Positions 18,422 to 30,642 of a stretch of 64,000 bases of DNA are shown in pieces. The position numbers were made by a program, and so were the translations under genes. Positions within the stretch are counted from its first letter, which is position 1. Every line of letters begins with the position of its first letter. Where the stretch lies: NCBI RefSeq assembly GCF_019968905.1, contig NZ_CP079946.1, positions 434,001 to 498,000 of the forward strand. Direction: 5' to 3'. This DNA comes from Corallococcus sp. EGB. Lineage in GTDB: Bacteria > Myxococcota > Myxococcia > Myxococcales > Myxococcaceae. Under the pieces are notes generated by a model. The model searched no databases. It worked only from the letters and a program-made list of their open reading frames with translations, and was not told where the DNA came from.

Positions 18422-20947
18422 CTAATGGGTGGGCGTGGGCCGCTGGGGACCCGGGCCCTTCCCGATGAGTTGCTCACCCCGGAGGCGCGGGGGAACCGCA
18501 CGGTGGCGCCGCTTGCGCTCGGAGAGCACCAGCAGCAAGGCCGGGAAGCCCACCAGCATGATGAGCAGGTTCATCCCGAACCCCACGTTCGCCAGGGCGC
18601 CAATCGAGTTGAGCCCGGGGTGGTCCGCGAGCAGCAGCGCGCCAAAGCCCACCACGCTGGTCATCAGGCCGCCGCAGATGGCCTTGCCCGTCTCCGAGTA
18701 CACCCGCACGAAGTCGCTGCCCGGCTCGCGCAGCCGTTCAATCAGGTGCACGCCCGCGTCCACCGTCGTCCCGATGAGCACCGGGATGACCAGGATGTTG
18801 AGGTAGTTGAACTCCATGCGCAGCAGGGGCATCAGCCCCAGGAGCGCGAAGAGCGACACCACCGTGGGCATCAGGCACAAGAGCGCGGTGCGCAGCCCGC
18901 CCAGCGTCAGCCACATGGCCAGCAGCACCGCGAGCGTCGAGCCCAGCAGGATGAACGGCGCCTCGTGCGACACCAGGTTGAAGATGTCCGCCTGCACCAT
19001 CGCCTCGCCGGCGACGATCGCGGGCCGGCCATCCGGCAGCTTCACCCCGCGGACCTCCTTCGCCAGCCGGCGCATGGCCTGGCCGTTGGACTGATCCGCG
19101 GACGGGTACACCAGCACGAAGCCGGTGCCCGGGCCGCCGCGCCCCTCGAACTGCTGGCGCACGCTGGAGGGCAGGTCCGCCACGGTGAAGGGCCGCGCCG
19201 CCACCTGCCTGCGCAGCTCCTCCAACTGCTGGCGGTGCTCGGGCGTGAGCTGTCCGTCGGGCACGTCCTCCAGCAGCTCCCCGATGTCCTTCAGGATGGC
19301 CTGCTTCTCCTGCTGCCGCTCCGGCACGAGCGTCGCGAGCGCCGCGACGAAGTCCACGGTGGAGTCCGCGCCCCGCTGCTGCTTGCGCGCCTGGAGCTCC
19401 CGGACGACCGCCGCCTCCTCGTCGCGGGAGCGCGTGAGCACCACGAGCGGGACCTGCGAGTAGCCGATGAGCTGGTTGACGGCGCGGTCCAGGACGAACG
19501 AGTCCAGGCGCTGGTCCTGCAACGAGCCGATGTTGTAGTCGAACCGCACGCGCGGCAGCTGCGTGAGCAGGCCCAGCACGACGAGCGCGGACACGGCGGT
19601 GAGCAGCCCCCTGCGGTGGGTGATGACGCGGCCCAGGGGGGCCTCCGTCGCCTCCGTGGAGGACGCGCGCGGCTTCCAGCCGTGGCGCGATGCCAGCCCC
19701 AGCGCCGCGGGCAGCACCAGCACGTACGCGACGATGAGCACCAGCATGCCCACCCCCGCGATGACGCCGAACTCGCGGAACGCCCGCAGCTGGGAGGAGC
19801 CCAGCACGAAGAAGGTGAGCGCCGCCACCAGCGCGGACACCACCGCCGAGCCACCCGTGTGCGTGAACGACTCGCGCGTGGCCTCCTCGGAGGGCTGCCC
19901 CTCCCCGCGCAGGATGAGATAGCGGCCCAACAGGTGGATGCCGTGCTCCACGCCCAGGCCGCCCAGGATGGCGCCCAGGAAGGCCGTGAGCAGGTTCACC
20001 CTGCCGTACGCCACGCCCACCAGGCCGTAGGTCCACGCGAGGCCCGCGCCCACCGGCGCCAGCACCATCCCCACCGGGAGCAGGCTCCGGAAGTGCAGGA
20101 GGAGGTAGAGCAGCACCAGCACCGACGCCACCGTCGAGGCCACCGCCACGTCGCGGGTGATCTGCGCCTGTTGATCCATCTTCTTCTGGAACGAGCCGGT
20201 GAGCTCCGTGTGGAAGCCGGGCCCGTACTTCGACAGGTCCTGCTGCTTCAGCACGCCCTGGACCTCGCCGATGATCTTCGTCGAGAAGGTGAGGTCCGCG
20301 GACGACGTCGCCGGCCTGGCCAGCACCACCACGCGGCGCGCGGCGGGATCCAGGTAGTAGTCGCTGGGGTGGCCGGAGAGGCGCGTCACCGCGCCGCCGC
20401 CGTACTTCCGCTCCAGGTCGGAGAAGTCCAGCGACGGGGCCGGCTCATCCTCCAGCGACACGAAGAGCGGGTTGGCGCGCTGCCGCTCCCAGCGCAGGCG
20501 CGCGTCGATGCGGCGCTCCACCTCCTTCAGGTCCTCGGGCGACAGGAAGTAGAGCGCGTGGCTGCGGAAGAAGCTGCTGGGGCGGGTGATCTCCACGTAG
20601 CGGATGCCCGGCAGCGCCTCCAGCTTCGGCGCCAGGTCCTCCGCGAACCGCTGGAGCTGCGCCGGGTCCCCGCCCTCGCCCACCACCACCACCCATCCCT
20701 GGGCGCCGAAGCGCTCCTCCAGCGTGTGCAGCGCCTGCACGCTTTCGAACGAAGGGGGCAACAGGTCCGCCAGGTTCGCGTTGAGGGACAGGTGCCGGGC
20801 GGACAGCAGGCCCAGGACGGACAGCACCACCGCGCAGACGAGCGCGGTGATGGGACGGCGGTGGTTGTGCGCGGCCAGCGCACCCATCGTGCGCTCCACG
20901 CGGTCCATCCAGCCGCGCTCCGCGGATGAAGTCGGGTTCGAGGCCAT
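18422..20947 (-). CDS. RND/MMPL-family lipid exporter (copy 1, HpnN-like)
   Basis: An 841-residue inner-membrane transporter with the classic MMPL duplication: one transmembrane helix, a large periplasmic loop, five helices, then the same again. The first helix is near residue 30 (ALVCAVVLSVLGLLSA). The first RND block holds LGGLGVEHGIHLLGRY and the second IGTTVDAGVHLIERLREPGSD. This group includes hopanoid and other lipid transporters such as HpnN, driven by the proton gradient. The start at 20947 is the first that gives a normal N-terminus; the ribosome-binding site is weak. It is a divergent paralog of the next gene. Confidence 0.85.
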   Translation of the reverse strand: MASNPTSSAERGWMDRVERTMGALAAHNHRRPITALVCAVVLSVLGLLSARHLSLNANLADLLPPSFESVQALHTLEERFGAQGWVVVVGEGGDPAQLQRFAEDLAPKLEALPGIRYVEITRPSSFFRSHALYFLSPEDLKEVERRIDARLRWERQRANPLFVSLEDEPAPSLDFSDLERKYGGGAVTRLSGHPSDYYLDPAARRVVVLARPATSSADLTFSTKIIGEVQGVLKQQDLSKYGPGFHTELTGSFQKKMDQQAQITRDVAVASTVASVLVLLYLLLHFRSLLPVGMVLAPVGAGLAWTYGLVGVAYGRVNLLTAFLGAILGGLGVEHGIHLLGRYLILRGEGQPSEEATRESFTHTGGSAVVSALVAALTFFVLGSSQLRAFREFGVIAGVGMLVLIVAYVLVLPAALGLASRHGWKPRASSTEATEAPLGRVITHRRGLLTAVSALVVLGLLTQLPRVRFDYNIGSLQDQRLDSFVLDRAVNQLIGYSQVPLVVLTRSRDEEAAVVRELQARKQQRGADSTVDFVAALATLVPERQQEKQAILKDIGELLEDVPDGQLTPEHRQQLEELRRQVAARPFTVADLPSSVRQQFEGRGGPGTGFVLVYPSADQSNGQAMRRLAKEVRGVKLPDGRPAIVAGEAMVQADIFNLVSHEAPFILLGSTLAVLLAMWLTLGGLRTALLCLMPTVVSLFALLGLMPLLRMEFNYLNILVIPVLIGTTVDAGVHLIERLREPGSDFVRVYSETGKAICGGLMTSVVGFGALLLADHPGLNSIGALANVGFGMNLLIMLVGFPALLLVLSERKRRHRAVPPRLRGEQLIGKGPGPQRPTPTH

Positions 20948-21379: not shown

Positions 21380-23863
21380 ATGAGTGAGACGCGGTGGTCC
21401 GGTCGGTTCGAGGCGGCGATGGGCTCGTTGGCGGCCCGCAGCCACCAGAAGCCCTGGGTGGCGCTGTTCTTGACGCTGGTCCTCACGGGCCTGGGCACCT
21501 TCTTCGCGCGCGACCTGCGCCTCAACGCGGACCTGGCGCACCTGCTGCCCAAGTCGTTCCAGTCCGTGAAGGACCTGGACAAGCTGCGCACGCGCTTCGG
21601 GGGCCAGGGCAACGTGGTGGTGGCCGGCATCGGCGCGGAGCCCGAGCAGCTCAAGCAGTTCGTGGATGACCTGGCGCCGAGGCTGGGGACGCTGCCGGAG
21701 ATCCGCTTCGTCAACGCGCAGCGGCCCAGCCAGTTCTTCGAGGAGCACGGCCTCTACTACGTGGACCTGGACGACCTGAAGACCATCGAGCAGCGCATCG
21801 ACGCGCGCTTCGCGTGGGAGAAGGAGCAGGCCAACCCGCTCTTCGTGCGGCTGGAGGACGAGCCGGCCCCGTCGCTGGACTTCAGCGACATCCAGAAGAA
21901 GTACACCGGCGGCGCGAACATGCGGCTCGCGGGGCAGGGCGGCCTGTACTACCTGGATCCGCAGGAGCGCATGGTGGTGATGCTGCTCAAGGCCAAGGGC
22001 TCCTCCGCGGACCTGGGCTACTCCAAGGAGGTCATCTCCCAGGTGGAGGACTTCCTCGCGAAGCAGGACCTGTCGAAGTACGGCCCCGGCTTCCACACGG
22101 AGATCACCGGCACGTTCAAGAAGAAGATCGACCAGCAGGAGGTCATCACCAATGACCTGGCGCGCGCGTCCACGCTGGCGCTGGTGCTGCTGCTGGGCTA
22201 CCTCATCTTCCACTTCCGCAGCGCGCTGTCCGTGGGCCTCACCATGGCGCCGGTGGTCGCGGGCCTCGCGTGGACCTACGGCTTCGTGGGCATCGCGTAC
22301 GGGCAGGTGAACCTGCTCACGGGCTTCCTCGCGGCGGTGCTGGGCGGCCTGGGCGTGGAGCACGGCATCCACCTGCTGGGCCGGTGGGGCGCGCTGCGCA
22401 CGGAGGGCATGACGTCGGAGGAGGCGGTGCGGGAGACGTTCCGGCACACGGGCTTCTCCGCGCTCATCTCCGCCCTGGTGGCGGCGCTCACGTTCCTCAG
22501 CCTGTCGTGGTCTGAGTTCAGGGCGTTCCACGAGTTCGGCGTCATCGCCGCCGTGGGCATGATGGTGAGCGTGGCGTCGTACCTGCTCATCCTGCCGGCG
22601 CTCTTGGGGCTGGTGTCGCGCTTTGGCTGGGTGCCGCGCGAGCACCAGTCCCAGTCCGGGCCCATGGCGCTCCTGGCGCGCTTCCTGCCGCGGCGCTACC
22701 GCGCGGTGGCGCTGGTCATCGGCGTGGCGCTGGTGGGGCTCATCAGCCAGGCGTACCGGGTGACCTTCAACTACGACTCCACGAAGCTGGATGACGTGAC
22801 GCTGCCGAGCGTGCGGCTGGACCGCCGCATCGACCACATCCTGGGCTATTCAGCGACGCCGGTGGTGGTGCTGACGGACACGGAGGACATGGAGCGCGAG
22901 GTCGTGAAGCAGCTCCAGGCGCGCAAGGAGAAGTACGGCAAGGACTCCACCATCGACTTCGTGGGCGCGCTGGAGGACCTGGTGCCGCGGCAGCAGGAGG
23001 AGAAGCACGCGCTGCTCCAGTCCATCCACCAGAAGCTCCAGCGCATCGACCCGGCGCGCGTGGACAAGGCCCAGCGCGAGGACCTGGTGCGCGCGGTGAA
23101 GATGACGGGCGCGAAGCCCTTCACGCGGGATGACCTGCCGGTGAGCCTGCGCCGCCAGTTCGAGCCGGCGGCCGGCCAGAAGGGCGGCGTGGTGCTCGTC
23201 TACGCGAACGTGAGCCTGTCGGACGGCGCGGGCACGCGGCGCTTCACCAAGGAGGTCCGCAACCTCCAGATGCCGGACGGCAGCGAGGTGTCCGCGGCGG
23301 GCGAGGCGCTCATCCTGGCGGACATCCTGGACATGGTGGCGTCCGAGGGCCCGCGCATCCTGGTGGCCGCGGTGCTCAGCGTCTTTTTGGCCATGTGGCT
23401 GACGCTGGGCTCCTTGCGCAACGCGGTCATCTGCATGCTGCCCACGCTCCTGTCCGTCGCGGCGCTGGTGGGCCTGATGGCCATCCTGGGCCTGCAGTTC
23501 AACTACCTGAACATCGTCGTCATCCCGGTGCTCATCGGGACGACGGTGGACGCGGGCGTGCACCTGATTGAACGGCTGGGCGAGCCGGGCTCGGACTTCG
23601 TGAGCGTCTACGCGGAGACGGGGCGGGCCATCGCGGGCGGCCTGCTGACGAGCGCCATCGGCTTCCTGGCGCTGGTGTTCGCCAAGCACCCGGGCCTCAA
23701 CTCCATTGGTGACCTGGCCAACCTGGGCTTCGCGGTGAACATGGTCATCGTGCTGGTGGGCTTCCCGGCGCTCCTCCTGCTGGTGGACCGCTGGCGCCAC
23801 AAGCACAGCGCCACGCCCACCCCGGCGGGCGGCGACGGCGCCGAGCACCCCGCCGAGAGCTGA
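21380..23863 (+). CDS. RND/MMPL-family lipid exporter (copy 2, HpnN-like)
   Basis: An 827-residue paralog of the divergent neighbour, with the same plan: a transmembrane helix at about 28-45, a periplasmic loop, a five-helix bundle, then a repeat. Both copies share DLSKYGPGFHTE, the LGGLGVEHGIHLLGR block, IPVLIGTTVDAGVHLIERL, GEPGSDF and HPGLNSIG. Substrate is probably a membrane lipid or lipid-like molecule, by family. The nearby fatty-acid hydroxylase and inositol-lipid operon fit a lipid role, but no substrate is shown. The start follows an in-frame ATG at the end of a GC-rich leader. A clean terminator follows the stop. Confidence 0.88.
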   Translation: MSETRWSGRFEAAMGSLAARSHQKPWVALFLTLVLTGLGTFFARDLRLNADLAHLLPKSFQSVKDLDKLRTRFGGQGNVVVAGIGAEPEQLKQFVDDLAPRLGTLPEIRFVNAQRPSQFFEEHGLYYVDLDDLKTIEQRIDARFAWEKEQANPLFVRLEDEPAPSLDFSDIQKKYTGGANMRLAGQGGLYYLDPQERMVVMLLKAKGSSADLGYSKEVISQVEDFLAKQDLSKYGPGFHTEITGTFKKKIDQQEVITNDLARASTLALVLLLGYLIFHFRSALSVGLTMAPVVAGLAWTYGFVGIAYGQVNLLTGFLAAVLGGLGVEHGIHLLGRWGALRTEGMTSEEAVRETFRHTGFSALISALVAALTFLSLSWSEFRAFHEFGVIAAVGMMVSVASYLLILPALLGLVSRFGWVPREHQSQSGPMALLARFLPRRYRAVALVIGVALVGLISQAYRVTFNYDSTKLDDVTLPSVRLDRRIDHILGYSATPVVVLTDTEDMEREVVKQLQARKEKYGKDSTIDFVGALEDLVPRQQEEKHALLQSIHQKLQRIDPARVDKAQREDLVRAVKMTGAKPFTRDDLPVSLRRQFEPAAGQKGGVVLVYANVSLSDGAGTRRFTKEVRNLQMPDGSEVSAAGEALILADILDMVASEGPRILVAAVLSVFLAMWLTLGSLRNAVICMLPTLLSVAALVGLMAILGLQFNYLNIVVIPVLIGTTVDAGVHLIERLGEPGSDFVSVYAETGRAIAGGLLTSAIGFLALVFAKHPGLNSIGDLANLGFAVNMVIVLVGFPALLLLVDRWRHKHSATPTPAGGDGAEHPAES

Positions 23864-23892
23864 CGAGCGACAGCCGCATCCGTGCGGACAAG

Positions 23893-23926
23893 AAGGCCCC
23901 GGCTCCTCCCGCCGGGGCCTTTCTGT
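23893..23926 (+). terminator. Rho-independent terminator after the second RND gene
   Basis: An 11-base stem (AAGGCCCCGGC, loop TCCTCCC, GCCGGGGCCTT) is followed by TCTGTT, 29 bases past the stop codon on the plus strand. Confidence 0.8.
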
Positions 23927-23965
23927 TGGTGCGTCCGGCGCCCTCCATCCCCACCTTCGTCCAGT

Positions 23966-24589
23966 ATGGGACGCTCATACTTCAGGTATCAGTCCGGGCC
24001 GATGTTCGAGAATGCCTTTCTCGAGGCCTGCTCGAAGCTCCACCCCGCGGTGCCGTTCCTCTTCTACGGCCCGCTCACGCTGGGCCTGCTCGGGTGGGGC
24101 CTGCACGCGAGAAGGACGACGCTGGGGACGAGCGCGGTGTTCGTGCCGCTCGGCCTGCTGACATGGGTGGTGATGGAGTACTGCATCCACCGGTATGTCT
24201 TTCATTGGGAGGGCAGGGGGCCGTTCACCCGGCGGCTGCACGAGGTGGTGCACGGCTACCACCACAAGTACCCGGACGACCCCATGCGCCTGGTGATGCC
24301 GCTGGGGGCGAGCGCCCCCGTCGTGGCCCTCATCGGCGGCATGCTGTGGTGCGTGGGCCGCCCGGCGCAGATGCTCCCGTACTTCGTGGGCATCGTCTGG
24401 GGCTATGTGGCGTACGACTGCATCCACTGGGCCACGCACGCGCATGCGCCGCGCACGGCCTGGGGCAGGAAGCTGCGCGCGCACCACATGGCGCACCACT
24501 TCGCGACGCCGGATCGCAACTTCGGCATCAGCAACCGGTGGATGGACCGCTTGATGGGGAGCGACGGCCGGCGCGACAGGACGAGGTGA
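23966..24589 (+). CDS. Fatty-acid 2-hydroxylase / sterol-desaturase family protein (FA2H/Scs7-like)
   Basis: A 207-residue membrane protein with the di-iron histidine clusters of the fatty-acid hydroxylase superfamily. These are HRYVFH (about residue 75), HEVVHGYHHKYPDDPMRLVMP, the HWATHAH cluster and HHMAHHF near the C-terminus. The block H-G-Y-H-H-K-x-P-D-D-P-x-R-L-V-x-P is the hallmark of eukaryotic FA2H and yeast Scs7, which 2-hydroxylate the N-acyl chain of ceramide. Four hydrophobic segments surround the clusters. The cytochrome b5 domain of Scs7 is missing. The start at 23966 keeps the SYFRYQSGPMFENAF N-terminus; 24002 is an alternative. It converges on the inositol-lipid operon. Confidence 0.8.
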   Translation: MGRSYFRYQSGPMFENAFLEACSKLHPAVPFLFYGPLTLGLLGWGLHARRTTLGTSAVFVPLGLLTWVVMEYCIHRYVFHWEGRGPFTRRLHEVVHGYHHKYPDDPMRLVMPLGASAPVVALIGGMLWCVGRPAQMLPYFVGIVWGYVAYDCIHWATHAHAPRTAWGRKLRAHHMAHHFATPDRNFGISNRWMDRLMGSDGRRDRTR

Positions 24590-24619
24590 GGCGCGTGGGG
24601 CGGGGCAGGCCCCCGCTCC

Positions 24620-25201
24620 TCAAGCGGCCTTGTCCGGCACGCCCGTCCACGCGGCCACGAAGTCCGCCAGGCCGCGCAGCTGACGGTCGTTGAGCGTCGC
24701 CTGCCAGCGCGCGTGGCGCACCGCCCGGTACGCCTCCGGCGCGTCCCAGCCGCGCGCCACCATCACCGCCAGCCCCATCAGCGGCCCGCGCCCCACGCCG
24801 TGCTCGCAGTGCGCGTACAGCACGCCGCCCGCGTCCAGCCGGGGCAGCGCCCAGCGCACGCCCTGCGACAGCTGCTCCACGGACGGCGGATGGCGGTCCG
24901 TCACCGGCAGGCTCAAGAGCTCGATGCCCAGCGCCGCCAGCGCCTCGCGGTCGTCACAGCGCTCCGCGCGCAGGTCGATGACGCAGGTGATGCCCCGGGC
25001 CTTCAGCTCGCCGTAGCGCGCGCGGGACACGCTGCCGCCCACGTGCAGCCACGGGTTCACCTGGGACACGTTGAGGGCGCGCTGGCCGGGCAGCTTGGTG
25101 GTCCACTCCACCCCGCGCGCCACCACCCGCAGCACCTGCTTGCGCACGAACCCCCGGACCCCGGGGACGTGATGCACCGACCGCAGCAACGACTCGCTCA
25201 C
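24620..25201 (-). CDS. Dual-specificity / tyrosine-type phosphatase, candidate PIP phosphatase
   Basis: A 193-residue DSP-fold protein with the Cys-phosphatase loop HCEHGVGR (H-C-x5-R) at about residue 140 and the general-acid Asp candidate in LPVTDRHPP. QVNPWLHVGGSVS and GITCVIDLRAE are typical of DSPs. It is the last gene of the inositol-lipid operon, so the best guess is dephosphorylation of phosphatidylinositol phosphate, as PTPMT1-type DSPs do for phosphatidylglycerol phosphate. That role is inference. The GTG at 25201 is chosen for its CGGGAG ribosome-binding site and 20-base gap from the upstream stop. The longer in-frame extension upstream runs antisense to no conserved domain. Confidence 0.75.
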   Translation of the reverse strand: MSESLLRSVHHVPGVRGFVRKQVLRVVARGVEWTTKLPGQRALNVSQVNPWLHVGGSVSRARYGELKARGITCVIDLRAERCDDREALAALGIELLSLPVTDRHPPSVEQLSQGVRWALPRLDAGGVLYAHCEHGVGRGPLMGLAVMVARGWDAPEAYRAVRHARWQATLNDRQLRGLADFVAAWTGVPDKAA

Positions 25202-25221
25202 GCTGAGGAACTCCCGGGCGG

Positions 25222-26220
25222 CTACTCGCCTTCCAACGTCACTTCCATCAACCCGTCCACCGGCGCCTTGCCCGGGCGCTCCATCACGCCCCGCAGCAGG
25301 TACGTCACCGGCGAGCCCACCATCGGTCGCACCAGCCCGCCCAGCACGCCCAGCGACTCCACCGGCGCGCTGCGCTGGAGCAGGGACGTCCCCTTGAGCG
25401 TCAGCGCGGGCTTGCCGTCGCGGTCGGTGAACTCCGCCCGCCAGGTGCTCTTGTCCTTCGTCCCCGTCTGCGTGAGGGCGAAGGACTCCAACAGCCGCGC
25501 GTCCCCCTTGTCCTCCCAGAGGTACACCGGCGCGTAGTCTCCGCTCTGCCCCTCGCGGCCCAGCACCACCGCGTACGGCGGCCCCTTCAGCGCGCGGAAG
25601 CGCACCCAGCGCTTCGCCACCTTCGCCGGCGCCACCGTGCTGCGCGAGTGGTCCACGTACCCGCCGCCCTTCAGCGTCACGCCCTCTTCCGCGGGCACGC
25701 GGAGCTTCACCGTCACGGGGCTGCCCGCCAGCACGACCTCGTGGCGGTAGCGGTCCTTGCCGCTCTCCACCACGGAGCCCTCCGGCGACCACGGCGCCGG
25801 CTTGCGCGCGTACTCCAGCTGCACCCGGCCGTTGTCCAGCGGCGCGTCCACCGTCAGGCCCGTGTCCGTGGCCCGGGCGAAGCAGGCGCCCATCGTCAGC
25901 TGGTCCTGGGCGGGGTTGTAGCTCCAGTCATTCGCCCCCATGCGCTTCTGCGGCGCCCAGGCGCGCTTGCCGGGCCGCAGCACCGTGGCGCGGCAGATGC
26001 CCGTGCGCGACCCCGGGCCGATGTTCGTCACCGACAGGTTCACCGTCACGTAGGTGCCGTCGTCCGTGTCCGCCACGAAGGTGAAGCTCTCTCCGTACCG
26101 GTCGTTGGAGTCGTACGACAGCTTCAGCACGCCACCACCCGCCGCCGCCACCCCCGGAAGCGAAAGCAGGGCCCCCAGCAGCAGGGCCCTCAAGCCGCGG
26201 GCGAGCGTGTCACGCCGCAT
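25222..26220 (-). CDS. Exported lipocalin-like protein of AttH/CrtC/Svf1 type
   Basis: A 332-residue protein with a signal peptide (cut after about LPGVAAA). The mature part is all beta. The blocks YGESFTFVADTDDGTYVTVNLSV and, near residue 215, GGGYVDHSRSTVAPAKVAKRW resemble the two-lipocalin AttH/CrtC fold and yeast Svf1, which is linked to ceramide trafficking. It overlaps the end of the CDP-alcohol transferase gene by 11 bases and precedes the phosphatase by 20, so it is translated with the operon. A periplasmic carrier of inositol lipid towards the outer membrane would fit. The fold call is from memory of motifs and not certain. Confidence 0.6.
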   Translation of the reverse strand: MRRDTLARGLRALLLGALLSLPGVAAAGGGVLKLSYDSNDRYGESFTFVADTDDGTYVTVNLSVTNIGPGSRTGICRATVLRPGKRAWAPQKRMGANDWSYNPAQDQLTMGACFARATDTGLTVDAPLDNGRVQLEYARKPAPWSPEGSVVESGKDRYRHEVVLAGSPVTVKLRVPAEEGVTLKGGGYVDHSRSTVAPAKVAKRWVRFRALKGPPYAVVLGREGQSGDYAPVYLWEDKGDARLLESFALTQTGTKDKSTWRAEFTDRDGKPALTLKGTSLLQRSAPVESLGVLGGLVRPMVGSPVTYLLRGVMERPGKAPVDGLMEVTLEGE

Positions 26221-27454
26221 GGGGCCGCTGCTCCATGAGCTCGTCCGAGGAGTGGTCGTTGAAGACGTAGTCGCGCTGCAGCGGCAGGTTCCACGCGAAG
26301 TAGACCACCCCGCGCACCATCCACCAGCCCAGCGTGTACGCCAGCTGCGGGTGCAGCGTGAGCAGCGCCACGCCGCCCGCGTTGAGCAGCGCGCTCGTCG
26401 CGCTCACCAGCGTGTAGCGCGCCAGCTGCGGCGCCACCGCGCCCTGGCTGCGGAAGGTGATGACCCGGTTGAGGGTGTAGTTCACCACGCCGCCCAGCAC
26501 GCAGCCGGCCACCGTGGCCCACACCGGGGAGAGGCCTCCCCACTCCACCATGCCCAGCACCGCCACGAAGTCCACCGCCGTGGCGATGGCGCCCGCCGCC
26601 GCGTTGAAGCCGAACAGCGCCATGCCCGAGCGCGGCTGCACCGGCTTCTTGGGCGTCAGGGCCCGCACCAGCGTGCGGAAGCGCGACACCGCCGTGACGT
26701 TGCTCAGGATGGCCACGAACACCAGGCCCGCCACCGCCAGCCAGTGCATGGGGTGCTTCTGCTCCGGCCAGAACAGCGCCTCCAGGATGGGCGACAGCGC
26801 CGTGCCCACGCCCAGGAACAGCACCCGCTCCAGCCGCTGCATCGCGCCGTCACGCACGCTCACGCCCAGGCCCTCGCCCTTGGCGCGCACGTACGGCACC
26901 AGCGAGGAGCCCATCAGCGCCCCCAGCGCGGGCAGCAGCACCCAGGTGTCCCGGTAGTACCAGGCCAGGCCCATCAGGATGGCGGAGTCCACGTAGCGGT
27001 CCAGCACGGAGTCCAGCGCCGCGCCCGCGGGGTTGGCCTCCTTGCGGGTGCGCGCCACGCGGCCGTCCATCACGTCCAGCACGCCCGCGAAGAGGAACAG
27101 CCAGCCGCCCAGCGCGAAGCGGCCCGCCGCCACCGCCACGCCGGAGGACACGCCCAGCAGGCCGGACAGCATGGACAGCGCGTTGGCCGGCAGCCCCGAG
27201 CGCAACAGCACTGCCCACAGGGGCTGGATGACCCAGAAGAAGTAGTGGCGCAGGAAGAAGCCCACCAGCACCGACTTGCCGCGCGTCAGCGTCTCCGCGT
27301 CCCGGGGGATGCCCTTGATGGCGCAGCGGATGCAGAACAGCACCAGGCCCACGAGGAAGTAGGCGACCGCGAGGAGCGCGGGCGCCAGTGCGGTCCAGAT
27401 GCGTGCCGAGGGGGACAGGTCTCCACTCAGCCAGGCCAGGATGTGGTCATGCAC
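26210..27454 (-). CDS. CDP-alcohol phosphatidyltransferase fused to a GtrA-like domain
   Basis: A 414-residue membrane protein. Residues 60-260 carry the CDP-alcohol transferase signature D-G-x2-A-R-x8-G-x3-D-x3-D, here DGRVAR to GAALDSVLDRYVD, with the usual six helices. The likely product is phosphatidylinositol phosphate from CDP-diacylglycerol and inositol-3-phosphate. Residues 275-400 are a GtrA-like four-helix domain (NYTLNRVITFRS, then RYTLVSATSALLN). GtrA proteins are thought to move lipid-linked sugars across membranes, so the fusion could couple synthesis and flipping. It overlaps the PAP2 gene by 8 bases and the lipocalin-like gene by 11. The substrate is inferred from the operon. 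Confidence 0.8.
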   Translation of the reverse strand: MHDHILAWLSGDLSPSARIWTALAPALLAVAYFLVGLVLFCIRCAIKGIPRDAETLTRGKSVLVGFFLRHYFFWVIQPLWAVLLRSGLPANALSMLSGLLGVSSGVAVAAGRFALGGWLFLFAGVLDVMDGRVARTRKEANPAGAALDSVLDRYVDSAILMGLAWYYRDTWVLLPALGALMGSSLVPYVRAKGEGLGVSVRDGAMQRLERVLFLGVGTALSPILEALFWPEQKHPMHWLAVAGLVFVAILSNVTAVSRFRTLVRALTPKKPVQPRSGMALFGFNAAAGAIATAVDFVAVLGMVEWGGLSPVWATVAGCVLGGVVNYTLNRVITFRSQGAVAPQLARYTLVSATSALLNAGGVALLTLHPQLAYTLGWWMVRGVVYFAWNLPLQRDYVFNDHSSDELMEQRPHAA

Positions 27455-28382
27455 GGGTATTCCCTCCAGACGGCAGGGTCATGGGCGCCACTCCTGGCGC
27501 ATCCACGGCCCGTCTAGCGAAGACAGCCCTCACGACGACGTAGGCCACGACCGCCGCGGTCATGCCCGCGAGCACGTCGAGGATGTAGTGGTGCGTGAGG
27601 TACACGGCGGAAAAAGCCACGAGCAGCGCGAACAAGCCCGTCCCCACCCGCCACGCGGGGCCCTTGTGCCAGAGCACGAGCACCATCATCAGCGGGTAGG
27701 CCGCGTGCAGCGACGGCATGGCGCCGAACACGTTGGGGTTGCGGCCGTAGAAGTTCGCGAAATAGTGGATGCCGAAGAAGGCATCGAAGCGCGCCGTGCC
27801 CGCCGGACTGGGTGGCGCCGCCAGGTTCGCGAGTCCCGGCCCGTACTTCAGGACGTACCAGGGGGGCGCCGCGGGGTAGAGGACGTACGTCACGACGCCA
27901 ATGGCGTTCACCAGGAAGAAGGCCCAGCAGAGCTGTTCGAAGCGCGCGTCCTTCTTGAAGAAGAACAGGAGCGCCACCAGGAACACCTCGTAGATGTAGG
28001 CCGCGTAGGCGAAGCCGCACAGCAGGTCCAACGGCGTGTTGGGGTGGTGCGACCACCATTCGGGCCAGTTCACCCCTCCCGGGGCGGGGAACAGCGTCTT
28101 CTCGAGGTTGAACAGGTCGCCGGTGTGGATGGTGCCGCGCACCCCCAGCCACAGCGACTGGCTGTCCAGGATCATCCCGGTGAGCCACAGCGGAAACGCA
28201 CCGCGGAGGAACCGCCGCGGGCCGGCGCCGGCCCAGGCCAGCACCACCAGCAGCAGGTCCGCCGCGGCGTGTTCCCACCGGACCCGCCCGGTGGCGACAA
28301 CCATCGCGAGGTGGCCCGTCGCCATGAGGGTGACGAGCCACTTGAACGCGGTGTCGTTCTTAGCGGGAGAGCGGGAGGTCAT
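27447..28382 (-). CDS. PAP2-superfamily enzyme, Aur1/inositol-phosphoceramide-synthase-like
   Basis: A 311-residue polytopic membrane protein of the PAP2_3 type. The motifs are YPAAPPWYVLKYG (about residue 155), FGAMPSLHAAYPL (motif C2) and THHYILDVLAG (motif C3, H-x3-D). This spacing, with a long aromatic insert NFYGRNPN ahead of PSLH, is seen in yeast Aur1 and bacterial relatives that transfer phosphoinositol from phosphatidylinositol to ceramide. A simple lipid phosphatase is the alternative. It overlaps the inositol-phosphate synthase gene by 23 bases and the next gene by 8, indicating translational coupling in the operon. Confidence 0.8.
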   Translation of the reverse strand: MTSRSPAKNDTAFKWLVTLMATGHLAMVVATGRVRWEHAAADLLLVVLAWAGAGPRRFLRGAFPLWLTGMILDSQSLWLGVRGTIHTGDLFNLEKTLFPAPGGVNWPEWWSHHPNTPLDLLCGFAYAAYIYEVFLVALLFFFKKDARFEQLCWAFFLVNAIGVVTYVLYPAAPPWYVLKYGPGLANLAAPPSPAGTARFDAFFGIHYFANFYGRNPNVFGAMPSLHAAYPLMMVLVLWHKGPAWRVGTGLFALLVAFSAVYLTHHYILDVLAGMTAAVVAYVVVRAVFARRAVDAPGVAPMTLPSGGNTRA

Positions 28383-29697
28383 CCCCGTAGTAGTCCATCC
28401 CCAGATGCGTGATGGGCTCTTCGCCCGCGACGACGCGCAGCGTGTTCTTCAGCTTGGTCAGCTGGATGAACAGGTCGTGCTCCACCGGCAGGCCCGGGTG
28501 GGCCATGGGGCTCTTGAAGTAGAAGGACATCCACTCCTGGATGCCCCGCCACTCCAGCCGCTTGGCCAGGTCCATGAACAGCGCGATGTCCAGGACGAGC
28601 GGCGCCGCCAGGATGGAGTCGCGGCAGAGGAAGTTGACCTTGATCTGCATCGGGTAGCCCAGCCACCCGGTGATGTCGATGTTGTCCCAGCCCTCCTTCG
28701 CGTCGCCGCGGGGCGGGTAGTAGTGGATCGACACCTTGTGCGAGTACTTGTTGTACAGCTCCGGGTACAGGTCCGGCTGCAGGATGGTGTCGAGCACGCT
28801 CGACTTGGTCACTTCCTTGGCCTTGAAGGCCTGCGGATCATCCAGCACCTCGCCATCCCGGTTGCCCAGGATGTTGGTGGAGAACCAGCCCTCCAGGCCC
28901 AGCATGCGCGCCTTGAGCGCGGGCGCGATGACCGTCTTCATCATCGTCTGGCCGCTCTTGAGGTCACGGCCCGCGACGGGCACGCCCTCCAGCTTGGCCA
29001 GCTCCTGCAGCGCGGGCGTGTCCACGGCCGCGTTCGGCGTCCCGTTGGCGAACGGCACGCCTTCCTTGATGGCCGCGTAGGTGTAGAGCGCCGTGGGGTT
29101 GATGTCCGGGCTGTTCGCGTCCAGCGCCTTCTCGAAGTTGGCCAGCGTCTGGAAGGCCTCCGGCAGCGGCCGGAAGGTCTCCACGCTGCTGCACACCACC
29201 ATCACGGCGCGCTTGGCGTTGAGCTCCTTCTTGAAGTCCCGGATGTCCTGGCGCAGCGCGTCAATGCTCTCGCGGTGCGTCTTGGTGGACTTGATGTGGT
29301 TTGCCGCGATGCGGCGCACGAACTCGGGGTCGTGCACGCCCGGCTTCGGCTTGATGCCCTGGAGGAAGGGCTTCACCTGCTCCAGGTGCTTGTCGGTCAG
29401 CACACCCGAGCGCACGGCCACCTGGTAGGCGTCCTCGCTGATGATGTCCCACGCGCCAAAGACGACGTCGTCGAGCGTGGCCAGCGGCACCAGCTCGTTG
29501 AGCTTCACGGTGCGGCCGTCGGTGCGCTTGCCCAGACGGGCCGTGCCCATCTGCGTGAGCGAGCCGATGGGGGCGCCCTTGCCCTGCCGCGCCAGCTCCA
29601 CACCCGCCATCAGCGTGGTGGACACCGCGCCCAGGCCCGGGATGAGCACCGCCAGCTTGCCCTCGGGCTTCGCGACCTTCTTCTTGTTCTCCATCAT
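28360..29697 (-). CDS. ino1: Myo-inositol-1(3)-phosphate synthase
   Basis: A 445-residue enzyme converting glucose-6-phosphate to inositol-3-phosphate with NAD. The N-terminal Rossmann block reads VLIPGLGAVSTTLMAGV. The family blocks TRxSQT-like GSLTQMGTARLGK, DVVFGAWDI, KEGVPFANGTPNA, RDLKSGQTMMKTVIAP (active-site Lys and GQT) and GWFSTNILGNRDG follow in order. The length matches the prokaryotic family. The start at 29697 (MMENKKK) has AAGGA 6 bases upstream; a 118-residue upstream open stretch is not homologous. It is the promoter-proximal gene of the operon and supplies the inositol headgroup. Confidence 0.92.
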   Translation of the reverse strand: MMENKKKVAKPEGKLAVLIPGLGAVSTTLMAGVELARQGKGAPIGSLTQMGTARLGKRTDGRTVKLNELVPLATLDDVVFGAWDIISEDAYQVAVRSGVLTDKHLEQVKPFLQGIKPKPGVHDPEFVRRIAANHIKSTKTHRESIDALRQDIRDFKKELNAKRAVMVVCSSVETFRPLPEAFQTLANFEKALDANSPDINPTALYTYAAIKEGVPFANGTPNAAVDTPALQELAKLEGVPVAGRDLKSGQTMMKTVIAPALKARMLGLEGWFSTNILGNRDGEVLDDPQAFKAKEVTKSSVLDTILQPDLYPELYNKYSHKVSIHYYPPRGDAKEGWDNIDITGWLGYPMQIKVNFLCRDSILAAPLVLDIALFMDLAKRLEWRGIQEWMSFYFKSPMAHPGLPVEHDLFIQLTKLKNTLRVVAGEEPITHLGMDYYGDDLPLSR

Positions 29698-30123
29698 CCT
29701 GATTCCTTCGAAAAGGCGGGAAATCGCTCCGCCCAATGAGCGTCTCCGAGTCCGTCCATCCGGCGCCGGCAGGCTGCCGGACGGAAGGTGGAAAATCTCG
29801 AAAGCGGATGGTTGATACTCTAAACCGTCTGTCACTTCAACGTGATGTGAGGGCGGTCCCGGCTCGTACCACGGCGGCGGCCGGCTGCATGACTCGGGCC
29901 GGGGCGCGCTACAAGCCAGGACGAACGGCGCTGTCAGAGAAACAGCAAACCCGGGGGCAAAGGCCTCACCCACCGCGGCGGGCGTCCTCGGAGCGCCTGC
30001 CGGGTGGGCCGGGGTGGTACGGCTCTGCGCTTGCTCTGCTTTCGCACACACCCTGACACGTATGTCAGGTTTTGAGAAGGTGAGAACCGCCGGGTTTCCG
30101 GCGGCCTTCCGCCGGTTTCGCGA
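29698..30123. other. Upstream region of the inositol-lipid operon
   Basis: A 426-base gap that holds the operon promoter (29812-29840) and about 110 bases of leader. At 30052-30069 there is a 7-base inverted repeat (CCTGACA, CGTA, TGTCAGG) followed on the plus strand by TTTT; it could be an operator or a weak end signal for the PNPOx-like gene, whose stop is at 30124. I see no gene here. Confidence 0.5.
29812..29840 (-). promoter_or_regulatory. Sigma70-like promoter of the inositol-lipid operon
   Basis: On the minus strand a -35 of TTGAAG (29840-29835) and a -10 of TATCAA (29817-29812) are separated by exactly 17 bases, within a local dip in GC. This would start transcription near 29805 and leave a leader of about 110 bases before the inositol-phosphate synthase ATG. 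Confidence 0.55.
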
Positions 30124-30642
30124 TCAATTGTGCCGGGCGGCGCCCTTGTCGAGCTTCTGGTTGTCGCCCGGGCGGTACGTATCGCCGGTGAGGACGGCTT
30201 TCACGAAGCCGACCAGCTGGACCATCTTGCTGTTGGGCGTATCCCAGTACTCGGCCTTCTCCACGGAGACGCGCAGGAGGGCGAGGTGTGGATCATCCAG
30301 TCCCTGCGGGAACCAGGCCTTGAGGGAGGGGTTCCACAGCTCCCTGGCCTTGGCCTTGTCGTGGACCAGGTGGCAGCGGCCGCTGACGGACACGTAGCGG
30401 TCCCTCGCCGGGTCGGAGTAGGCGAGGTTGACGGAGTGGTCCTTCTGCACCTCGTCCACCTTCTGGGTGTGGTCGTGGGTGAAGAACCAGAGCTCTCCGT
30501 CGAAGTTCTTGTCGTAGGTCCACATGGGCCGGCTGCGCAGGCTGCCGTCGGTGTCCACGGTCGTCATCATCGCGACCTTGATGCCGTGGATGAGCTTGCC
30601 CAGGTGCTCCACCACGTCCTGCGGACTCTTCGTCGTCGTCAT
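30124..30642 (-). CDS. Pyridoxamine 5'-phosphate oxidase-like general stress protein
   Basis: A 172-residue split-barrel FMN-binding protein of the COG3871 general-stress type, not a true PdxH. Visible blocks are VAMMTTVDTDGSLRSRPMW, ELWFFTHDHTQKVDEVQKD and VNLAYSDPARDRYVSVSGRC, and YWDTPNSKMVQLVGFVKA near the C-terminus. It probably binds a flavin and reduces an unknown substrate. GGGAGG lies 7 bases before the ATG at 30642. Upstream in-frame codons read as Ser/Arg-rich noise. It is divergent from the 30809 gene. Confidence 0.85.
   Translation of the reverse strand: MTTTKSPQDVVEHLGKLIHGIKVAMMTTVDTDGSLRSRPMWTYDKNFDGELWFFTHDHTQKVDEVQKDHSVNLAYSDPARDRYVSVSGRCHLVHDKAKARELWNPSLKAWFPQGLDDPHLALLRVSVEKAEYWDTPNSKMVQLVGFVKAVLTGDTYRPGDNQKLDKGAARHN

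Follow-up and report, generated by a model that had tools for sequence, protein, structure and literature searches.

A probable inositol (sphingo)lipid operon of the Bacteroides kind in Corallococcus sp. EGB

We analyzed a window of 64,000 nt from Corallococcus sp. EGB (GCF_019968905.1, NZ_CP079946.1, positions 434,001-498,000 of the forward strand), the genome of which is a single contig of 9,431,171 bases. Five genes on the minus strand probably form an inositol (sphingo)lipid operon of the kind represented by BT_1522-1526 of Bacteroides, and we assign this reading a probability of about 0.78. It is based on protein families, catalytic residues, folds, a conserved gene neighbourhood, domain fusions, and the presence of serine palmitoyltransferase (SPT) in the genome. 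In the pathway that we infer, a myo-inositol(-3)-phosphate synthase (MIPS) would convert glucose 6-phosphate to inositol phosphate, and a phosphatidylinositol-phosphate (PIP) synthase domain (PIPS) would join the latter to CDP-diacylglycerol at the inner leaflet. A PTPMT1-like phosphatase would strip the spare phosphate to yield phosphatidylinositol, which a GtrA domain fused to PIPS may flip to the outer leaflet. An Aur1-like enzyme would transfer phosphoinositol onto ceramide, generating inositol phosphoceramide (IPC), and an exported double-lipocalin protein, together with a neighbouring MMPL transporter, may move substrate or product through the envelope.

The five open reading frames (ORFs) encode, in the order of transcription, the MIPS (28360-29697, 445 amino acids), the Aur1-like phosphoinositol-ceramide transferase (27447-28382, 311 amino acids), the PIPS-GtrA protein (26210-27454, 414 amino acids), the exported double-lipocalin protein (25222-26220, 332 amino acids), and a phosphatase with a protein tyrosine phosphatase/dual-specificity phosphatase (PTP/DSP) fold (24620-25201, 193 amino acids, GTG start). 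The first four genes overlap by 23, 8, and 11 bases, and a gap of 20 bases separates the fourth from the fifth. An ORF check reproduced exactly the five minus-strand ORFs, the order, the overlaps, and the gap given in a preliminary description of this DNA. That description had named an inositol-phosphate synthase, an Aur1-like PAP2 enzyme, a CDP-alcohol transferase-GtrA fusion, a lipocalin-like exported protein, a DSP phosphatase as the fifth gene, and a convergent fatty-acid 2-hydroxylase gene, and all of these identifications agree with the results presented below, as does the reading of the genes as an inositol (sphingo)lipid operon. Of the profile matches it had proposed as a check, those to PF07994/PF01658, PAP2_3, CDP-OH_P_transf, and GtrA were obtained, whereas DSPc (PF00782) stayed under its cut-off and other DSP/PTP families matched in its place.

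To analyze conservation, we used an Aur1-like profile to fetch the best 80 of 217 related loci (denoted L; genomes are denoted G), many of which are from closely related species, so that the counts are not independent. The order MIPS, Aur1-like, PIPS/GtrA, lipocalin, DSP on one strand was found in 23 of the 80 loci, and the genera were Corallococcus, Myxococcus (including M. xanthus AM003, L088), Pyxidicoccus, Hyalangium, and Citreicoccus. One further locus, L080, is truncated by its contig end. Because the identical five-gene order on one strand recurs in 23 of 80 loci, the operon is more than a chance arrangement. The closest named loci were from Corallococcus, and the Aur1-like protein is 92% identical to that of Corallococcus sp. 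AS-1-6. A different composition was seen in Bdellovibrionota-type clusters (L141:11914-17093 and related), in which MIPS, PIPS, and GtrA are joined by two further families, a class-III aminotransferase in 17 of 71 loci and a Gfo/Idh/MocA oxidoreductase in 10; one member of each of the two was checked against Pfam. These clusters perhaps make an amino-modified headgroup.

Both MIPS domains were found in the first protein (PF07994, E 1.2e-84; PF01658, E 3.7e-33), and the best solved structure was 7nwr (E 4.3e-142), which is BT_1526 (PMC9246714). A second MIPS gene of the same genome lies outside the window (L161:6519-7901, minus strand, G000:C1), with a Gfo/Idh/MocA oxidoreductase gene about 1 kb away. 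The second protein, a predicted IPC synthase, matched PF14378 (PAP2_3, E 3.1e-26), and its best NCBIfam model was NF052609, phosphoinositol dihydroceramide synthase (E 3.9e-42). The structure of yeast AUR1, 9vj3, also matched (E 9.9e-21). Residues H226, H265, and D269 were invariant in all 18 aligned sequences and align with the H-H-D residues of yeast Aur1 (yeast H255 was read from the alignment); the protein has the PAP2-type domain with conserved H, H, and D that characterizes Aur1-type IPC synthases.

In the third protein, PF01066 (E 1.6e-13) and PF04138 (E 2.9e-16) are combined in one ORF, with the PIPS domain at residues ~68-265 and GtrA at residues ~286-398. The PIPS domain was matched by the NCBIfam models NF040950 (archaetidylinositol phosphate synthase, 9.5e-35), NF052561 (PIPSynBT1523, 2e-32), and NF045883 (actinobacterial PIP synthase, 5.4e-28), and by the PIPS structures 6wm5 and 6h53. 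The CDP-alcohol motif D127..D130-G..A134-R135..G144..D148..D152 was invariant in 11 sequences and has the form D-x2-DG-x2-AR...G-x3-D-x3-D of the PIP synthases in BT_1522-1526-type clusters. Two arginines, R210 and R258, were also invariant (11 of 11). The inositol-phosphate pocket of MtPIPS contains R155, R195, S132, and K135 (PMC4634129); R155 corresponds to R210 in the alignment with the PIPS structure, and R195 probably corresponds to R258, which lies beyond the end of that alignment. In the 58 loci with a PIPS, GtrA was fused to it in 37 cases, encoded adjacently in 15, apart in 1, and absent in 5. A single ORF even encodes PIPS, GtrA, and a C-terminal lipocalin domain in six loci, which represent five genomes, as L040 and L102 are from the same one.

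For the fourth protein, no Pfam family was found at E 0.01 or at E 1. When 19 members of its family were scanned against Pfam, only six scattered families gave matches, each in no more than two proteins (best E 0.0093); we took these as chance, and none of the 19 had a lipocalin-type match. The AlphaFold2 model (pLDDT 82.2, pTM 0.81) matched the AttH-like structure 2ich (Foldseek E 5.5e-11; VIA-align Z 22.8, root-mean-square deviation 3.2, 278 residues aligned), and unrelated rows appeared from Z ~8 downward. In this model, two lipocalin-like barrels of the AttH/CrtC type were matched across nearly the whole chain, and the N-terminus of the protein is hydrophobic. Diels-Alderases of the same fold reached Z ~22, and Foldseek also returned fungal Diels-Alderases and kievitone hydratase with nearly equal Z, and thus, judged from its model, the protein may have an enzymatic role. 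We predict that it is a lipid carrier or chaperone. Yeast Svf1, which has two lipocalin domains, is likely a ceramide carrier (review, PMC10583516).

The fifth protein matched DSP/PTP-type Pfam families, and its HCx5R motif reads HCEHGVGR. The AlphaFold2 model (pLDDT 81.2) combines the PTP fold with this motif, as would be expected for a PTPMT1-like enzyme. The best VIA-align row was PTPMT1-PI(5)P (3rgq, Z 22.1), with Tk-PTP level at 21.8; Foldseek placed Tk-PTP first and PTPMT1 fourth, and ordinary DSPs were at Z 18-20, so that the likeness to PTPMT1 is not exclusive. PTPMT1 is a mitochondrial phosphatidylglycerophosphate (PGP) phosphatase, and the PgpA and PTPMT1-like families both include PGP phosphatases. 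The proven PIP phosphatase of Bacteroides, BT_1525, belongs to the PgpA family (PMC9246714), in place of which a DSP-type protein was found here. In the 80 loci, the phosphatase was a DSP in 25 cases and PgpA in 9, and never both; PgpA was called by Pfam or NCBIfam for L105, L112, and L134, and by our own profile for the remaining loci. In L112 and L102, the MMPL ORF has PgpA at its C-terminal end, which ties the lipid phosphatase to the exporter. These results suggest that the DSP phosphatase replaces PgpA as the PIP phosphatase. The enzyme could instead be a PGP phosphatase like PTPMT1, or a protein phosphatase encoded in the operon by chance, with PIP being dephosphorylated by another enzyme. 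The PTPMT1-type fold would suit this, as would the slightly lower scores of generic DSP folds, and no PgpA (PF04608) match was found in the genome of Corallococcus sp. EGB, so that a PGP phosphatase is also needed. However, the gene is conserved as the last one in all 23 loci with the complete set of five genes, it follows an MMPL gene in L095 and L098, and it does not occur together with PgpA. We therefore consider the alternative unlikely, albeit a serious one. No entry in the available part of the M. xanthus phosphatome paper (PMC2887360) could be matched to this phosphatase, and the actinobacterial PIP phosphatase is termed unidentified in PMC4634129.

The proposed product requires ceramide, and an SPT-type protein is encoded elsewhere in the genome (NF047600, 514 bits), as would be expected for an organism with an Aur1-type IPC synthase. 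A GNAT-family gene adjoins the SPT gene and is a candidate for the ceramide synthase. We surveyed 195 Myxococcota genomes, with thresholds of at least 100 bits for Aur1-like proteins and at least 400 bits for SPT. An Aur1-like gene was present in 78 genomes, and 64 of these also had an SPT, while SPT without an Aur1-like gene was found in 26 of the 195. The Fisher p of 6e-17 for this co-occurrence ignores shared ancestry and was not used as a probability. In the other 14 genomes, the best hits of the α-oxoamine synthase (AOS) type reached 232-334 bits, and several were inside very long ORFs. Because of these 14 genomes and their weaker hits, a different acceptor is possible in the lineages with the PIPS-GtrA-lipocalin fusion and in others that lack a clear SPT. 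For the operon in general it seems improbable that the Aur1-like enzyme makes inositol lipids with an acceptor other than ceramide, i.e. another sphingoid-like lipid or a glycerolipid, and that ceramide phosphoinositol of Myxococcus is a side or separate product. SPT accompanies most Aur1-like genes, IPC and phosphoinositol-dihydroceramide synthases are the nearest families with a characterised function, and PMC9246714 cites ceramide phosphoinositol from M. xanthus, which has the operon.

Two additional observations concern sphingoid metabolism. In G144, G018, and several genomes of family f2, AOS-type domains reside in ORFs of ~2,000 residues or more and no clear SPT was found; possibly, these ORFs provide another route to a sphingoid-like base. 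In addition, a second, distant PAP2_3 gene of Corallococcus sp. EGB lies outside the window (L160:9549-10643, minus strand, equivalent to G000:C1:5097548-5098642), ~4 kb from the SPT gene and with an MMPL gene between them. Such a gene was located at most 8 kb from SPT in 34 of 34 genomes for which coordinates were compared, including genomes without an Aur1-like gene, and it is a candidate transferase for another sphingolipid headgroup.

Several results weigh against the assignment of the five genes to inositol (sphingo)lipid synthesis. Various family cut-offs were not reached, i.e. those of NF052609 for the Aur1-like protein (144.7 versus 480 bits), of NF047600 for the SPT-type protein (514 versus 640 bits), and of NF040950, NF052561, and NF045883 for the PIPS domain. 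Two of the four pocket residues of MtPIPS differ, as S132 is replaced by P187 and K135 by R190. No SPT of at least 400 bits was found in 14 of the 78 genomes with an Aur1-like gene, and every one of the five genomes that have the PIPS-GtrA-lipocalin fusion (G018, G019, G023, G027, G028) belongs to this set. In 11 of the 80 loci, some on short contigs, the Aur1-like gene stood without the other families of the module. Deletion of the Bacteroides GtrA gene left the inositol lipids unaltered in thin-layer chromatography (PMC9246714), although reduced IPC is reported in PMC8791184. Finally, one sigma70-like promoter had been described upstream of the operon, but a scan for such promoters of both strands from 23800 to 30150 yielded 0 matches. 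The sequence TTGAAG-17 nt-TATCAA 5' of the MIPS gene (29812-29840, minus strand), which was read by eye and agrees with the consensus at 8 of 12 positions, is a weak promoter-like element that scored under the threshold of the scan.

Further genes of the window may belong to the same pathway. A fatty-acid hydroxylase gene (23966-24589, plus strand; PF04116, E 1.1e-17) converges on the operon, with 30 bases between its end and that of the fifth gene, and is predicted to act on the ceramide acyl chain. In L055, L057, L093, and L094, a gene for such a hydroxylase immediately follows that for the phosphatase in the same orientation, and in L050 it lies beside MIPS. Two MMPL genes were absent from the preliminary description. 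The first (21380-23863, plus strand) encodes an HpnN-like MMPL/RND transporter, a predicted inositol-lipid exporter; it matched PF03176 (E 9e-43) and HpnN TIGR03480 (E 1.1e-84), but reached neither the HpnN cut-off (285 of 752 bits) nor that of BstA (157 of 1400). The second (matched range 18476-20920, minus strand) is divergent from the first, and its product is 56% identical. Of the 80 fetched loci, 50 contained an MMPL gene, which in 12 was on the same strand and at most 500 bases from the Aur1-like gene. The 9.43 Mb genome encodes five near-full-length homologues, and by our own arithmetic an MMPL gene at most 10 kb from a random point would be expected ~1% of the time. In other phyla, MMPL homologues lie inside the inositol-lipid cluster, whereas here they are beside the operon. 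That GtrA and the exported protein serve a surface glycan, with the inositol-phosphate lipid decorating a polysaccharide and not being a membrane sphingolipid, is very improbable, because, although other GtrA proteins work in cell-surface glycan assembly (PMC9246714, PMC8791184), none of the operon genes was identified as encoding a glycosyltransferase, the partner with the strongest conservation is an Aur1-like enzyme, and the MMPL partners resemble HpnN/BstA lipid exporters.

If the genes do specify inositol (sphingo)lipids, they could tentatively be arranged in a complete line of synthesis and export, an extension to which we give somewhat less than even odds. PIPS would hand phosphatidylinositol to the fused GtrA flippase, the Aur1-like step would take place at the periplasmic face, and the two-lipocalin carrier, in some relatives a domain of the same polypeptide, would together with the MMPL pump deliver the product to the outer membrane, in parallel to yeast Aur1 and Svf1. 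The PIP-phosphatase slot would have been filled independently by PgpA and PTPMT1-like enzymes.

The operon supplies candidate genes for the ceramide phosphoinositol reported from M. xanthus, in a group open to genetics. Its phosphatase is a candidate for a second type of PIP phosphatase, the lipocalin protein and the MMPL transporter are candidates for the carrier and exporter of bacterial sphingolipids, and the fusion to PIPS offers a possible reason for the GtrA gene of Bacteroides. Among the matches listed in the open-licence literature, no paper dealt with a gene cluster for inositol lipids in myxobacteria.

The preliminary description had pointed to a similar grouping in Bacteroidetes, and this is indeed the BT_1522-1526 cluster (PMC9246714, PMC8791184). 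For BT_1522-BT_1525, the comparison was made via NCBIfam models and PDB entries, not by direct sequence alignment. In common with B. thetaiotaomicron, MIPS, PIPS, GtrA, and an Aur1-like phosphatidylinositol-ceramide synthase are grouped and the route has a PIP intermediate; the MIPS is within the cluster and closest to BT_1526, and GtrA is present as a fused domain. Unlike in Bacteroides, PIPS and GtrA are one protein, extended to PIPS-GtrA-lipocalin in some relatives, a DSP/PTPMT1-like protein is found instead of the PgpA-family BT_1525 (some relatives have PgpA in this place, as Bacteroides does), an exported double-lipocalin protein is part of the operon, and MMPL and fatty-acid hydroxylase genes lie alongside. 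The layout had been thought to look different because of the GtrA fusion and the lipocalin-like carrier. The fusion and the lipocalin protein do differ, but GtrA itself was ruled out as a distinguishing feature, as Bacteroides has the separate GtrA gene BT_1524 (PMC9246714, PMC8791184). With the mycobacterial and actinobacterial PIP synthase route (PMC4634129), the operon shares the CDP-alcohol phosphotransferase motif and the two key arginines, the second of them by inference; the GtrA fusion, the coupling to an Aur1-like enzyme, and the change of S132/K135 to P/R set it apart. With yeast Aur1 and Svf1 (PMC10583516), it shares an H-H-D transferase of the Aur1 type and, as a functional analogy, a two-lipocalin-domain protein that may act in the same pathway; unlike Svf1, the protein here is bacterial and exported, and the likeness lies in the described domain make-up. 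With PTPMT1, the phosphatase has the fold and the HCx5R active site in common, at an identity of 22-24% over ~148 residues. In summary, the kind of cluster is already known from Bacteroides, and the features of the myxobacterial variant are the PIPS-GtrA fusion, the type of phosphatase, and the lipocalin protein.

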